Positions 19,482-25,339 of a stretch of 64,000 bases of DNA are shown here, one piece after another. The notes beneath the pieces were generated by a model. That model ran no database searches. It saw only the letters and a program-made list of their open reading frames with translations, and was not told the origin of the DNA. Source of the stretch: Candidatus Methylomirabilota bacterium (GTDB taxonomy: Bacteria; Methylomirabilota; Methylomirabilia; Methylomirabilales; Methylomirabilaceae). Position numbers and translations under genes: made by a program. The stretch's first letter is position 1, and every line of letters begins with the position of its first letter. The DNA lies in the NCBI GenBank assembly GCA_003104975.1, contig PQAM01000008.1, positions 372,001-436,000 of the forward strand, given 5' to 3'.

Positions 19482-20657
19482 TCATCGGCAACGGAGCGTC
19501 TTAAGATCGATGGTCGGTTGCTGCGCCTCGCGGTACAGGATAAGCCCCAGCAGGGCGAGGCTGTTGGCGTAGTAATCGTCGGTTGCCTCAAAGAGCTGCG
19601 CCTTGTCGTTGAACCGACTGCGCAGCCTATCCCATACACCCTCCAGGATCAGACTGTCGGTCACTACCAACGCTGCCAGGCTCATCGCGTAGCTCGCCGT
19701 GTGCTCATACTCCACAATCGGTCGGCCCTCATAGCTATATTCCGCGAAGAACCGACCATCCAGTCTTCGCCATTCCCCGGCGTAAAATCCACTCAGGCGC
19801 GCGAGGTATCGCCTCGCCCGATCTTCGCCGAACCACAGGGCGTCCATTCCGAGTCGCCACGGGGTTCGAACGGCATCCCACCCGAATCGATTCGAGAACC
19901 CTTCGGCCCGTGTCAATGAACCGTCCGGCGCGATGCGCAGCCAGTCCGGCATCAGGCCGACCCCCGATAATCCGGCCAAGCGTCGTGAGGCCGTATCGAT
20001 CAGGTGATAGCTGCTGTCGATGAGGTCGTTCCAACGGGCATCCCCCGTACAGGCGAAGAAGACGCGAAAGTGCGCCGGAGACAGATAAGACGGGTTGATG
20101 ATGGTGCGGTCGTTGTCCTGTCCCCAGTTGCCCGGCAGCAGATACCTTCGGCCATCCACCACCTTGGTATTCAGGCTGAGCAGATCGTTCAGGATCGGTC
20201 GTGCCGCCTGGGCATAGCGCGGGTCGTGCCAGCGGTGAGCGGCGATGATCAGCGCCAGCGCATAGTCGATGTCGGCATCAGAGGCGCTGTTCCAGTCGAC
20301 GACCCCCCGGCCCGGTTGCCAGTGCCAGGCCAGCAGATGGTCGCCGGCGTGCCTCTGACGCGATAGATGCGTGTGGGTCCAGCGCATCACCCTGTCGAAC
20401 GTCGGCCGATCGTCCAGCAGTGAGGCGATGAGCAGCGCGTACGCCTGCCCCTCGGACACGGTGTCCCCCCTGTTGTGCGGACGAAAGACACGCCCATCGG
20501 CGTCGATAAACCGCTGGCGGAACCCCTGCCACGTTTTGGCGATCAGCTCGGTTACTGGAGTCGTGTCGGCCTGGGGGTCGGAGACCGAGGCTGCGCACGA
20601 TACCAGCAGCAGGCCCAACAGCCCGACGACCGTCGCGACCTCTGTCCGTGGGGGCAT
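19482..20657 (-). CDS. GH8 family glycanase (BcsZ-like), lipoprotein
   Basis: A 391-residue glycoside hydrolase family 8 protein, the last gene of the exopolysaccharide operon. Family signatures: DTVSEGQAYALLIASLLDDR (catalytic Glu in SEGQ), SASDADIDYALALI (catalytic Asp region), and NPSYLSPAHFRVF. The N-terminus is a lipoprotein signal (VVGLLGLLLVSCAAS). AAGGA lies seven bases before ATG20657; ATG20672 overlaps the upstream stop and is the alternative. Enzymes of this kind trim nascent cellulose or related beta-1,4-glucans in the periplasm. Here it is coupled to the TPR/barrel gene, so it probably edits the polymer on its way out. Confidence 0.88.
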   Translation of the reverse strand: MPPRTEVATVVGLLGLLLVSCAASVSDPQADTTPVTELIAKTWQGFRQRFIDADGRVFRPHNRGDTVSEGQAYALLIASLLDDRPTFDRVMRWTHTHLSRQRHAGDHLLAWHWQPGRGVVDWNSASDADIDYALALIIAAHRWHDPRYAQAARPILNDLLSLNTKVVDGRRYLLPGNWGQDNDRTIINPSYLSPAHFRVFFACTGDARWNDLIDSSYHLIDTASRRLAGLSGVGLMPDWLRIAPDGSLTRAEGFSNRFGWDAVRTPWRLGMDALWFGEDRARRYLARLSGFYAGEWRRLDGRFFAEYSYEGRPIVEYEHTASYAMSLAALVVTDSLILEGVWDRLRSRFNDKAQLFEATDDYYANSLALLGLILYREAQQPTIDLKTLRCR

Positions 20658-20671
20658 GCCGTCATCCTTCA

Positions 20672-22201
20672 TTAGAATGTATAGCCGATCGATCCCTGAG
20701 CGCCCCACTCGTTATAGACGGTCGACCGGATGGTCTTCAGCGACAGACCAACGTCCAACTGAGGCGCCAACGCGTAGGCAAATCTCCCGCGCCACTCATT
20801 AAACGGGATACCGTTGCTGTCGATGGAGATCCCATAGTAGATGGAGTAGGCATTCCGCGGCGCCTCCGCCAGGTAGTCTTTGTGTGTCGGGTAACCCAAC
20901 CGGTGCTGCCACTCGACGGCGAGCGTATTAGTGGCGTAGGCTGACGGGGAAAAGTAGGCGCGCTCCCGCTGGAACCCGAAGCCGTTGACACGATAGATCA
21001 GACGGAGCGATGTCGGGAACCAGAGCAGTCGATACGCTGCCAGGAACTCACCGCCGATCCTGGTGTTGTTGTCGGAGTAGTCGGTAAAGTCACCCTGGAT
21101 CGTCCACTCCAGCCGTTGCCCGACAACGCCCCTCACGCTTGTCGAGAATCGGTGGGTAACGATCCCATCCAATACGGTGGTCCGATTCTCCCACAGATCC
21201 TTCCGCTCAAAGTCGGCGCGGAGTGTCAGGCCGGACAGCGTCTCGTATGAGACGCCGACGCCGAGGTTGATCCGGTCTCGGTCCGTTCTATCATAGTGCA
21301 GACCGCTGACGAATCCGGTAAACTGCAGAAAGCTGTTCGGGTGATAGCCGAGCCCCACGGTACCTGCGTGTGCCAATAGGCTATCGTGCCCGAAGTGAAA
21401 CTGGGCGTTCTGGTAACCCAATCGGGCCGATACGGTATCGGAGATGCGCACACGGCCCTCGGCGCTGCCAAGCCCGTATCTGATGGATCGCTTGCCGTCA
21501 TAGCCTTGCTGGTCAATGAAGGCGTAGTCAAGCATGAGCAGCGGCTGCTGTAGCCGGGTATTAAGCTCCAGCCCCAGCGCGGCCCGTCGGTGTTCCGGCG
21601 CTACGGCCAGCAGGCGGCGGTAGAGCGCCTGCGCCTGCCATGGGCGTTCCCGCTGTGCGGCGATCTGTGCCAGATCAAAAAGCGCCTCGGTATTGTTCGG
21701 TTCGAGTTCCGCCAGCCGTTCGAATGCCGCTTGTGCCGGTCTCAGTCGCCCCAGCCACAACGCCCGCTTCCCGTTCCGTTCCAACTCTGTAGCGGCGTCA
21801 CTCGGAAACCGCTTGAGGATCACGTCAAAGGTGTCCAAGGCCGGTTCGTACGCGAATGCCCAGCCGTACGCCCTGGCCCTGTTGCGCCATACCGTGAGGT
21901 TGTCGGGCGCGAGGGTTGTAGCGGCCTCAAACTGTCGGATTGCCTCATCGGTACGTCCTATGGCAAGCAGGAGCCACCCCAGTTCCTCCACCGCGTCCCA
22001 TTGGGTGGGATCCCGCTCAATGGCCAGTCGATACCTGGCGATCGCCTGGTCATAGGCGCCGAGCCTCCAGGCGTTCCTGGCGCCCAGCATCAACACCTCG
22101 CGTTCGGTGGGCTCCTGCGCCCCTGCGATGGCGGCGGTCCACATGCCGAGCAGACCGCAGACCATGAGCCCGATGGCGGTTCGGCGGGGTGTTCGGGGCA
22201 T
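20672..22201 (-). CDS. TPR protein with C-terminal outer-membrane beta-barrel (YaiO/BcsC-like)
   Basis: A 509-residue secreted protein: signal peptide (ending AAIAGAQ), about five TPR units from residue 35 to 215 (AYDQAIARYRLAIERDP, TDEAIRQFEAATTLAPDN, ...), then a barrel of alternating strands (about 230-509) ending in GSIGYTF with the terminal aromatic residue used by the BAM machinery. The barrel resembles the YaiO/BcsC C-terminal family. In cellulose- and PNAG-type systems the equivalent protein (BcsC, PgaA) is the export pore guided by periplasmic TPRs. It lies three bases downstream of a small TPR gene and just before the GH8 gene. Export-pore function is inferred. Confidence 0.82.
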   Translation of the reverse strand: MPRTPRRTAIGLMVCGLLGMWTAAIAGAQEPTEREVLMLGARNAWRLGAYDQAIARYRLAIERDPTQWDAVEELGWLLLAIGRTDEAIRQFEAATTLAPDNLTVWRNRARAYGWAFAYEPALDTFDVILKRFPSDAATELERNGKRALWLGRLRPAQAAFERLAELEPNNTEALFDLAQIAAQRERPWQAQALYRRLLAVAPEHRRAALGLELNTRLQQPLLMLDYAFIDQQGYDGKRSIRYGLGSAEGRVRISDTVSARLGYQNAQFHFGHDSLLAHAGTVGLGYHPNSFLQFTGFVSGLHYDRTDRDRINLGVGVSYETLSGLTLRADFERKDLWENRTTVLDGIVTHRFSTSVRGVVGQRLEWTIQGDFTDYSDNNTRIGGEFLAAYRLLWFPTSLRLIYRVNGFGFQRERAYFSPSAYATNTLAVEWQHRLGYPTHKDYLAEAPRNAYSIYYGISIDSNGIPFNEWRGRFAYALAPQLDVGLSLKTIRSTVYNEWGAQGSIGYTF

Positions 22202-22204
22202 GGA

Positions 22205-22705
22205 CTACTCTCCCAGCAGAATGACAATGTGCGCTTCGGCCTCCGCGAACCTCCCGCGGTTATGGAGTTCGAGCGCGAGTTGCATCCGCAGATCGCGGCG
22301 TGCGGGTTCCAACTCGACCAGCCGCTCCAACGACTTGAGGATCTCATGCTGCTTCCCGCCCTTCCGCGCCGCTTCGAGCAGCCCCTTCCAGGCCTCGATG
22401 TCTTTGGGATTCGTCTGGAGAATGATCCGGAACTGCTCCTCCGCCTCCTGAATCCGTCCGGCCGCTACCAGGGCCCATCCGAACTCCTGTCCGGCATCGG
22501 GGTACGAGGGACGGTGTTCGAGCAGCCTCCGGTACCGGGCGATCGCCGTCTCGTGCTTGCCCGCCTTCGCTGCGTTCCTGGCCCCCATCAACAGCAGGAA
22601 GTGTTCGTCGATCTTCGACTCCTCGGCATGGGTCGGCGCGGTGAATACGGCACCGATCAGCGCCGCGGAGAGCATGACCGCACGCCATCGTGTCTGTCTG
22701 ACCAT
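22205..22705 (-). CDS. Small exported TPR protein of the exopolysaccharide operon
   Basis: A 166-residue protein with a signal peptide (MVRQTRWRAVMLSAALIGAV..., ending PTHA) and about three TPR units (HETAIARYRRLLEHRPSYPD, RIQEAEEQFRIILQTNPKD, ELEPARRDLRMQLALELHN). The motif LLLMGARNAAKAGKHETAIA closely parallels LMLGARNAWRLGAYDQAIA in the next gene, so the two share a recent origin. ATG22705 comes one base after the preceding stop. The open frame continues far upstream, but that part is the antisense-like reading of the neighbouring gene. It is probably a periplasmic scaffold linking synthase and export pore. Confidence 0.78.
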   Translation of the reverse strand: MVRQTRWRAVMLSAALIGAVFTAPTHAEESKIDEHFLLLMGARNAAKAGKHETAIARYRRLLEHRPSYPDAGQEFGWALVAAGRIQEAEEQFRIILQTNPKDIEAWKGLLEAARKGGKQHEILKSLERLVELEPARRDLRMQLALELHNRGRFAEAEAHIVILLGE

Positions 22706-22706
22706 G

Positions 22707-23117
22707 TCAGGTCGCCTCCTCTCCCAGCAACTCGGCGAAGTAGCGCTCCGCCTCCGTATAGCGGCCCGCGTTGTGCAGGGCCAGCGCGAGCCGCCACCTG
22801 AATCCGTGATTTTCAGGCGCCACAGCCACCGTGTGCCGCCAGACCAGGATCGCCTCATTCCAGCGTTCTGTACGTTCCAAGAGATCACCGAGGGCCACGA
22901 AGGTCTCGAGATTGGTCCGCTTGACCGGTGAGCGCATGATGGCCTCGTAGACGCGTCCGGTGCGCTCCGGATTCGGCGTCTCCGTGGCGTGCGCCAGTCG
23001 CTGCAGCTCGATCTCAGCCCGATAGATCCATTGGAACCCGCCCCACAGCAGCGCGCCATACAGCAGGAGGGCGACGCCGACGACCCATCTGTTGCTGATC
23101 AGGGAGGTCCCGTTCAC
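22707..23117 (-). CDS. Membrane-anchored small TPR protein
   Basis: A 136-residue protein: one N-terminal transmembrane helix (about residues 11-28, WVVGVALLLYGALLWGGFQ) and a periplasmic part with two or three TPR-like units (ERTERWNEAILVWRHTVAVA, GRYTEAERYFAELLGEEAT). It begins with GTG overlapping the stop of the BcsA-like synthase (GTGA), a sign of translational coupling. In position and topology it could replace the membrane-anchored periplasmic subunit (BcsB) absent here, but it shows none of BcsB's domains. Confidence 0.75.
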   Translation of the reverse strand: MNGTSLISNRWVVGVALLLYGALLWGGFQWIYRAEIELQRLAHATETPNPERTGRVYEAIMRSPVKRTNLETFVALGDLLERTERWNEAILVWRHTVAVAPENHGFRWRLALALHNAGRYTEAERYFAELLGEEAT

Positions 23118-25339
23118 GCGACCCTCTCTTGGCGCCCGGTCTCGCAGAGTTGTCGCAGACGCTCACGAGACGGTTCCGGCAGCCCCACGAATTCGGCCCC
23201 GACCTTGTAGGCGCCCTCGGTTGCTATGGCCCGGCAGTATCGGATCTCGATCGGCGCGTCCAGTCTGCCGAACGGTCCGAAGACCGTCATCGCGGTCCGC
23301 TCGCCCACAGCCAACGCGGTCGGCGCCATGAACGCCACCCCCGCGATACTGATGTCCTCCGTGACCAGGCAGTGGGGCGGGTCGGTATGCAGGAGGGCCG
23401 GCAGGCTGACGACCCTGCGCGCGGCCCGCCGCCGGATGCGCCGACGGTCGTAATAGTCTGCCATCCGCTTGGTCCACAGTGAGGGCCCGACCTCGAATCG
23501 CCGGAGAAGGGTCGGGAGCATCCGGTTGAAACAGAATGTCGTGATCGTGTCCTGCTGCGCCCTGCACGGATCGCTGAATTGAATCCCGTATCGGAAGACC
23601 CCCTCGTTCGTGGGACCCTTGAGCACATACAGGACGATCCCGTCGCATGAGAGGATCCGGGGTCCCAGGTGCAACTGCAGGTTCACCGGCTCCCCGATAG
23701 GCAGGGGTAAAAAGGTCATAAGCGCCATCCCATGCTCGTTCAGGTCGGTGCTGAGCCCCAACCCCTTTGTCGTTCCCTCATCGTAGCCCGCTTGGTACCA
23801 GACCGGCAGGCCGCCGGGAAACCGGAAATCCCTCCGGCGGTGCAGCGGGGCGGTCGCCGTGGCGACCGCCCGACATGCGAGCAGCCCATTCATACCGGTC
23901 CAGAATGCGCCGATGCCAAGTCCGATCAAGTCGCGCGAGACCGTATACAGCCACTTCAGTACTGCCCACTCCACCCCGGCGATGCACAGACCGATCAGCG
24001 TCAACTGGGGCAGGACACCCCGCAGGCTGACCGCCTCGCCGGCCCCCTTGCCGGTCACGATGAATCGCGCCCTCCGGCACAGGAGGCTCCTGACGACCGC
24101 CTTGGTCAGGACAAAGAAGTTCAACATGTTGGACAGCTCTTCATCGAGGATACGTCCGTACCCTCGGCTGACGATCTTGACGCTCAGGATGATAGTTGTC
24201 AGGAACATCCCATACCGCCAGAGAAACGGCCAGTCAAAGGGATAGATAGGATATTGCGCGGTGAGCAGCATGACCGCCGGGGTGACAAAGTAGATCAGTT
24301 TGGGCACGCCGATGAACCAGCCGAACACGGTGGCGAAGAAGCAGATCCGCTGCGGCAGGGTCAGCCCCCTGGTCCATAGCGGGTTGTCGGCAAACAGGAG
24401 GCTGATATTGCCCTCGGCCCAGCGGAGTTTCTGGACGTGATAATTCTTCAGGTCGGTGGCGGCGAGACCGCTGGACAGCAGCTCATTATGATAGACACCC
24501 TTCCAGCCCCTCTTGTAGAGGCGTACGCTGGTATGGAGGTCCTCCGTAATGGTTTCTGTCGCAAATCCGCCGATGTCGGCGAGGGCCGTCCTTCGGAATA
24601 CCGCCGACGTGCCCGCAAAGAAGGCCGAGTCCCAGTAGTCCCGGGCCGGCATCATAAAGCGATAGAAGAGGTCCGCTTCATTCCACATGATCCGCCGCTT
24701 CGGATTGAAATGAAATGAGAACGAGTCGACGTTGTAGTAATTCTGCGGCGTCTGGACGAAGGCCACCCGATCGTCCGTGAAGTACCCGAGCGTCTTGTCA
24801 AGGAAATCTGGTTGAGGCACATAGTCGGCGTCGAAGACGACAATCAGGTTGCCGTCGGTGACCGAGAGGGCGTGATTCAGGTTGCCGGCCTTGGCATGGG
24901 CGCGCTCCGTCCTGGTGACGTACCCGCATCCGAGTTCCGACGCAAGGGCCGCGAATGCCGCCCGATTTCCATCATCGAGAATATAGGTCTGGTGCGGGTA
25001 GGTCATGTTGATGCAGCCCAACACCGTCTTTCTGACCAGATCGATCTCCTCCTTGTAGGTGGGGATGTAGACGTCGACCCGCAGGCCGGGCGAAGCGGGG
25101 GGCGGGGTTCGCCGGATCGGATGCCACAACTGGAAGAAGTAGAGCGCAAGGGAGACGAACCCGTGGCACTCGGCATAGTAGAAAATCAGGGAGAACGCCG
25201 GCGCGTCCTGGTTCATGGTGTACAGCAGTCGATAGACGAGGTAGTACAGGTAGACCGCGAGGGCGAGGACTATGACGGTCTGATAATAGCGTAACGAGCG
25301 CAGTTCTCTCGTTATCGGTACACCGTGTGTCGACGCCAT
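23114..25339 (-). CDS. BcsA-like processive glycosyltransferase with two PilZ-like domains
   Basis: A 741-residue inner-membrane GT2 synthase, first gene of the exopolysaccharide operon. Two transmembrane helices at about 19-75; then the GT2 core with DDG (122-124), DAD (170-172), TED (265-267) and QKLRW (303-307), the D,D,D,QxxRW set of cellulose-synthase-like processive enzymes. Transmembrane helices continue at about 335-480. The C-terminus carries two PilZ-like units: RRDFR (502-506) with TDLNEHG (531-537), and RRAAR (637-641) with EDISIAG (661-667), the RxxxR and DxSxxG elements that bind cyclic di-GMP; the first has Asn in place of Ser. It therefore probably makes a beta-glucan-like polymer under c-di-GMP control. 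Polymer identity is unknown and no BcsB is encoded nearby. Confidence 0.88.
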   Translation of the reverse strand: MASTHGVPITRELRSLRYYQTVIVLALAVYLYYLVYRLLYTMNQDAPAFSLIFYYAECHGFVSLALYFFQLWHPIRRTPPPASPGLRVDVYIPTYKEEIDLVRKTVLGCINMTYPHQTYILDDGNRAAFAALASELGCGYVTRTERAHAKAGNLNHALSVTDGNLIVVFDADYVPQPDFLDKTLGYFTDDRVAFVQTPQNYYNVDSFSFHFNPKRRIMWNEADLFYRFMMPARDYWDSAFFAGTSAVFRRTALADIGGFATETITEDLHTSVRLYKRGWKGVYHNELLSSGLAATDLKNYHVQKLRWAEGNISLLFADNPLWTRGLTLPQRICFFATVFGWFIGVPKLIYFVTPAVMLLTAQYPIYPFDWPFLWRYGMFLTTIILSVKIVSRGYGRILDEELSNMLNFFVLTKAVVRSLLCRRARFIVTGKGAGEAVSLRGVLPQLTLIGLCIAGVEWAVLKWLYTVSRDLIGLGIGAFWTGMNGLLACRAVATATAPLHRRRDFRFPGGLPVWYQAGYDEGTTKGLGLSTDLNEHGMALMTFLPLPIGEPVNLQLHLGPRILSCDGIVLYVLKGPTNEGVFRYGIQFSDPCRAQQDTITTFCFNRMLPTLLRRFEVGPSLWTKRMADYYDRRRIRRRAARRVVSLPALLHTDPPHCLVTEDISIAGVAFMAPTALAVGERTAMTVFGPFGRLDAPIEIRYCRAIATEGAYKVGAEFVGLPEPSRERLRQLCETGRQERVA

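Follow-up and report, generated by a model that had tools for sequence, protein, structure and literature searches.

C-di-GMP (cyclic diguanylate)-dependent polysaccharide systems without the BcsB subunit of bacterial cellulose synthesis have been published in several variants. These are XcsAB-TolC of cyanobacteria (PMC12430437), CcsAB of clostridia (PMC7710045), BgsBA of Rhizobiales (PMC5567048, PMC9495663) and NfrA-NfrB (NGR) of E. coli (PMC8669472). None of them is described with a tetratricopeptide repeat (TPR) partner or with two PilZ units. Here we investigated a stretch of 64,000 nucleotides (the window; contig PQAM01000008.1, positions 372,001 to 436,000) from a Candidatus Methylomirabilota bacterium. 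It carries an operon at positions 19482-25339 coding for a BcsA-like synthase with two PilZ domains, three TPR proteins and a GH8 hydrolase. In our judgement the operon quite probably encodes a complete exopolysaccharide secretion system of the synthase-dependent kind, regulated by c-di-GMP and distinct in type, in which a small anchored TPR protein (TPR1) stands in the place of BcsB. In the open-access literature, which leaves out most subscription papers, no description of this system in anammox bacteria or Methylomirabilis was found.

The locus resembles the BcsA-BcsB-BcsZ-BcsC system in the motifs of the GT2 core, the gating loop, the PilZ domain following the last membrane helix, the GH8 enzyme and the TPR/barrel exporter. 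In contrast to that system, it has no BcsB, two PilZ domains, short separate TPR proteins and a core in another clade. The number of N-terminal membrane helices is apparently two, as judged from a low-confidence model, compared to four in BcsA (PMC6821405). BgsBA is likewise a BcsB-free system with a BcsA-like synthase, an FxVTxK loop, the motif DAD[F/Y]VP and control by c-di-GMP. However, BgsA bears no PilZ domain, its partner is HlyD-like, and neither a GH8 nor a barrel gene lies beside bgsBA, whereas the synthase described here has two PilZ domains and a TPR partner. No HlyD gene was found within the operon among the open reading frames (ORFs) and Pfam matches. XcsAB-TolC and CcsAB also combine a PilZ-bearing cellulose synthase, lacking BcsB, with a non-homologous membrane-anchored partner. 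This partner is HlyD-like in XcsAB and similar to a carbohydrate-binding module (CBM) in CcsAB, but not a TPR protein, and one PilZ domain is present. These two systems are published exceptions to the statement of the initial annotation that cellulose systems need BcsB, which was thus overstated. NfrA-NfrB shares a GT2 enzyme with a TPR/barrel exporter, activation by c-di-GMP and the lack of BcsB. However, NfrB uses an MshEN domain, for which the window synthase gave no Pfam match, and its core is just 17.8% identical to that of the window synthase. Tandem beta-barrel units are known from two-PilZ proteins of Myxococcus (PMC8316039) and from the YcgR-like folds of PlzA and MrkH, but there they are not fused to a glycosyltransferase.

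All five genes are located on the minus strand and are tightly packed according to their ORF coordinates. The GT2 synthase (741 aa, 23114..25339) overlaps the gene of TPR1 (136 aa, 22707..23117) by 4 bases. TPR1 is followed after 1 base by a second small TPR protein, TPR2 (166 aa, 22205..22705), after 3 bases by the TPR/barrel protein (509 aa, 20672..22201) and after 14 bases by the GH8 gene (19482..20657). The last gap is counted from the ATG used as start of GH8; a second in-frame start, a GTG at 20708, lies upstream. Pfam confirmed the order of GT2, TPR, TPR, TPR-barrel and GH8 proposed from the sequence before, with TPR families matched in all three TPR proteins. The same order was found intact in two other NC10 genomes of the same genus (G025 and G030) and in a deltaproteobacterial locus (L001). 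Its presence both within the genus and in a different phylum shows that the arrangement is not due to chance. The operon comprises an inner-membrane GT2, periplasmic TPR proteins, an outer-membrane barrel, a hydrolase and a c-di-GMP receptor, and thus belongs to the general kind of synthase-dependent exopolysaccharide secretion. The predicted assignment to c-di-GMP-type export operons is supported by these gene products. A search of the 64-kb window against Rfam gave no match, so that no c-di-GMP riboswitch or other RNA was found upstream.

The absence of BcsB was examined with PF03170. No match was obtained in the genome of the window, while the controls E. coli and B. subtilis were positive. 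PF03170 was also absent in all 95 searched genomes of the phylum, in the first five carrier genomes detected outside the phylum and in 12 of 12 carriers of the Brocadia class. In the same search, four Brocadia-class genomes with an ordinary BcsA all yielded BcsB (E 1.3e-104 or lower). Hence, the negative result is not a failure of the search. The initial annotation had noted the lack of BcsB, and no co-conserved bcsB gene was found elsewhere in the genome. The ordinary BcsA proteins of these four anammox genomes are 33-35% identical to the window synthase, and the three included in the tree group with BcsA. It could be argued that the locus is an ordinary Bcs cellulose system with a lost or unrecognisable BcsB, in which TPR1 is a mere scaffold piece and plain cellulose is formed. 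The best solved relatives of the synthase, the BcsA structures of E. coli and R. sphaeroides, would agree with this, as would the BcsZ-kind GH8 and the BcsC-like barrel. We consider it improbable, because BcsB is missing in every carrier tested yet present in the four sister genomes, and because the synthase reached 377.1 bits with the cellulose-synthase equivalog TIGR03030, far below the cut-off of 699.1. Furthermore, its core forms a clade apart from BcsA (support 1.0), and the operon holds no other uncharacterised periplasmic gene.

TPR1 was considered as candidate for the substitute of BcsB. It is a small single-pass protein with TPR matches in Pfam and a predicted membrane anchor at residues 6-24 (23046..23102). 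According to hydropathy and alignment, few parts of the protein are as well conserved as this hydrophobic segment, in which W, F and Y are invariant. In each of the 17 loci long enough to show what lies beyond the synthase gene, TPR1 follows it. In 14 of them the genes overlap or are at most 35 bases apart; the distance is about 150 bases in two loci and 2.1 kb in one. The protein is also retained in several Brocadia-class loci where TPR2, barrel and GH8 are not nearby. TPR2 has a signal-peptide-like N-terminus and is presumably secreted. In locus L046 it is fused to TPR1. The Brocadia counterpart of TPR2 and the barrel is one protein of about 1,200 residues. Most simply, TPR1 would be the membrane partner, and the long TPR stem of BcsC would here be split between TPR2 and the TPR portion of the barrel protein. 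The proposal that both small TPR proteins replace BcsB is therefore credible for TPR1, which is anchored and accompanies the synthase in all 17 loci, but not for TPR2, which merges with the barrel and looks like a part of a BcsC-like conduit. A physical docking of TPR1 on the synthase may be assumed from this arrangement.

The synthase shows a clear GT2 domain in Pfam (E 2.2e-24). In the alignment with BcsA of E. coli and R. sphaeroides, the catalytic core covers residues 86-312 (24404..25084) and contains the motifs DDG, DAD, TED and QKLRW. The BcsA gating loop FxVTxKG is present as FIVTGKG (24044..24064); this signature is kept in the family as well as in BcsA and BgsA. A local match of residues 88-366 with the S. 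meliloti pSymB relative BgsA, at 41.8% identity versus about 36% for BcsA matches, raised the question of membership in the BgsA group. The rhizobial relatives were called BgsA on the basis of PMC9495663 and of the R. etli p42e locus, which contains an HlyD gene. The window synthase shares DAD[F/Y]VP and QTPQ with BgsA, whereas cellulose synthases have D[A/C]DHVP and QTPH. However, over the 354-column core the identity was 36.9% to S. meliloti BgsA, a mixed-linkage glucan synthase, and 33.6-36.4% to BcsA proteins, so that the core is about equally distant from both. In the FastTree phylogeny the core of the synthase family forms a separate clade (support 1.0), and BcsA and BgsA are joined in a group (0.878) that excludes it. 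By core identity and tree, membership in BgsA was ruled out. A BgsA-like function would be compatible with the distinct type of system proposed here. In this case the synthase would form a mixed-linkage or another non-cellulosic glucan, and its PilZ domains and TPR partner would replace the BgsA tail and HlyD. The local identity and the shared motifs speak for it, but in view of the whole-core distances, of the position in the tree outside both groups and of anammox family members carrying QTPH and sometimes DTDC, we regard it as rather doubtful. The polymer is likely a beta-glucan made from UDP (uridine diphosphate)-glucose. A different BcsA-like synthase with a core identity of 39% was observed in a genome of the same taxonomic order (G008, L014:11754-14057), followed by a short ORF of 305 residues; this genome is without BcsB, too.

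The two PilZ domains of the synthase were each scanned alone against Pfam. PilZ1 (23528..23839) reached 32.0 bits and PilZ2 (23141..23434) 41.3 bits with PF07238, at a cut-off of 22.5, and both were matched in the genome search as well. Both domains are thus genuine, including PilZ1, whose failure as PilZ had been named in advance as the refuting case. PilZ1 starts where the lone PilZ domain of BcsA starts; hence PilZ2 is the additional unit. Its motifs RRAAR and DISIAG are canonical. Nearly all homologues retain RxxxR and DxxxxG in each of the two units. Two Brocadia-class synthases (L040:4579-7119 and L042:5821-8280) bear three PilZ units at the C-terminus, the third of which has canonical motifs. 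Together with the retained motifs, this indicates that at least two PilZ units are a trait of the family, with some drift. Both units may bind c-di-GMP.

The c-di-GMP network of the window's genome is small. It includes one GGDEF protein (L052:1438-2700), in which the GGDEF and RxxD motifs are intact. No EAL domain was detected in the genome; HD-GYP phosphodiesterases were not searched for. The only PilZ proteins are this synthase and one YcgR-like protein (L075:1465-2244), which is encoded beside an M23-peptidase-like gene and flagellar-looking ORFs. Within the genus, the YcgR-like protein is present in all four synthase carriers and in none of the 11 others. Other members of the genus possess a cyclase-PilZ protein whose N-terminal part is CHASE2-like (G031, L073:46-1875) and a GGDEF-PilZ fusion (G022, L074:601-1845).

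The barrel protein gave weak matches to PgaA_barrel and BCSC_C next to its TPR matches in Pfam. Its model of moderate confidence (pLDDT, predicted local distance difference test, 63; three sequences) contains 12 TPR helices and 14 strands, and a low-confidence stretch could hold two more strands. The top match in the PDB was 9b8a, BcsC of E. coli (E 6.5e-12); the PgaA barrel and PelB were also matched. Read on this model, the protein is a TPR/barrel exporter of the BcsC/PgaA type. The GH8 enzyme (PF01270, 1.4e-55) carries the lipobox LLLVSC and keeps the glutamate of SEGQ of E. coli BcsZ as well as the aspartate of GWDAVR in the alignment. The GH8 proteins of four anammox loci (L003, L042, L043, L044) have glutamate at the position of the aspartate in SYDAIR of E. 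coli BcsZ.

From these components the following mechanism can be proposed. The synthase would polymerise a UDP-sugar, most likely UDP-glucose to a beta-glucan, and push the chain through its own membrane channel. In a manner resembling that of BcsA, c-di-GMP formed by the single GGDEF protein would bind to the PilZ units and free the FxVTxKG gating loop. Anchored TPR1 would dock on the synthase in the membrane, in the place of BcsB, and take over the chain. From there, the conduit to the outer-membrane barrel would be continued by TPR2 together with the TPR portion of the barrel protein, and the GH8 lipoprotein would trim or clear misdirected chains.

Several observations weigh against this proposal. 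The catalytic core falls into none of the known clades of cellulose and mixed-linkage synthases. At the position of the autoinhibitory salt-bridge glutamate of R. sphaeroides (E371), the window synthase has Thr and the anammox members have Lys. PilZ1, with the motifs RRDFR and DLNEHG, bears N where (D/N)x(S/A)xxG demands S or A, and in the homologue Mir_L012 of the same genus the PilZ2 motifs are lost. Finally, the AlphaFold model of the synthase is poor (mean pLDDT 51.5, nine sequences); it allowed no conclusions on the fold and lent no more than limited weight to the presence of two beta-barrel units. Owing to the replacement of E371, the switch cannot be identical to the salt-bridge switch described for BcsA (PMC5567048). 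A conserved Asp was found in the alignment of the family one position beyond this site, and the gating switch is probably BcsA-like. As most members have N at the S/A site of PilZ1 and Mir_L012 lacks the PilZ2 motifs, one unit might be degenerate and structural only, with a single unit sensing c-di-GMP. The C-terminal part of the low-confidence model, which also matches the two-domain YcgR-like proteins PlzA, MrkH and MotI, would fit such a role. The motifs retained in both units of nearly all homologues and the third canonical unit in the two Brocadia copies argue against it, and we regard a single sensor as somewhat unlikely.

Close homologues of the synthase are present in 4 of 15 genomes of the genus, including that of the window, in 12 of 75 Brocadia-class genomes (in G119 only as broken copy) and in 2 of 395 genomes sampled from the phylum of a deltaproteobacterial metagenome-assembled genome (MAG). 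Ca. Brocadia MAGs are among the named loci. In the Brocadia-class loci L003, L042, L043 and L044 the synthase occurs with TPR1, a large TPR/barrel protein and GH8; the barrel frame of L042 is split. This patchy occurrence over three phyla suggests horizontal transfer of the operon. More broadly, the locus could represent a separate class with a single-pass TPR protein as obligatory translocation partner, two or three PilZ units integrating the signal and a polymer that is neither cellulose nor the known mixed-linkage glucan. Serving for the matrix of granules or biofilms, such a class would have passed by horizontal transfer between nitrite-dependent methane oxidisers and anammox bacteria. Taken as a whole, this extended view appears unlikely.

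The results suggest that BcsA-like synthases can exchange their periplasmic partner, which may be BcsB, an HlyD-like, a CBM-like or now a TPR protein. A naturally BcsB-free system makes the actual contribution of BcsB a testable question. Furthermore, a concrete gene set is named for the matrix in biomass of NC10 and of Brocadia-type anammox bacteria, the granules of which matter in wastewater treatment. In the window's genome, one cyclase and two PilZ proteins make up the reduced c-di-GMP network that would control this gene set.

The flanks of the operon in G025 match those of the window, with glpX-, fba-, rpe- and M48-peptidase-like genes on one side and an acetyl-CoA synthetase-like gene on the other, as named from their sequences. 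The flanking genes in G030 differ. Tandem pairs of synthase genes are frequent in Brocadia-class loci (L003, L004, L044, L047, L048 and L050), where stops or frameshifts interrupt several of the copies.

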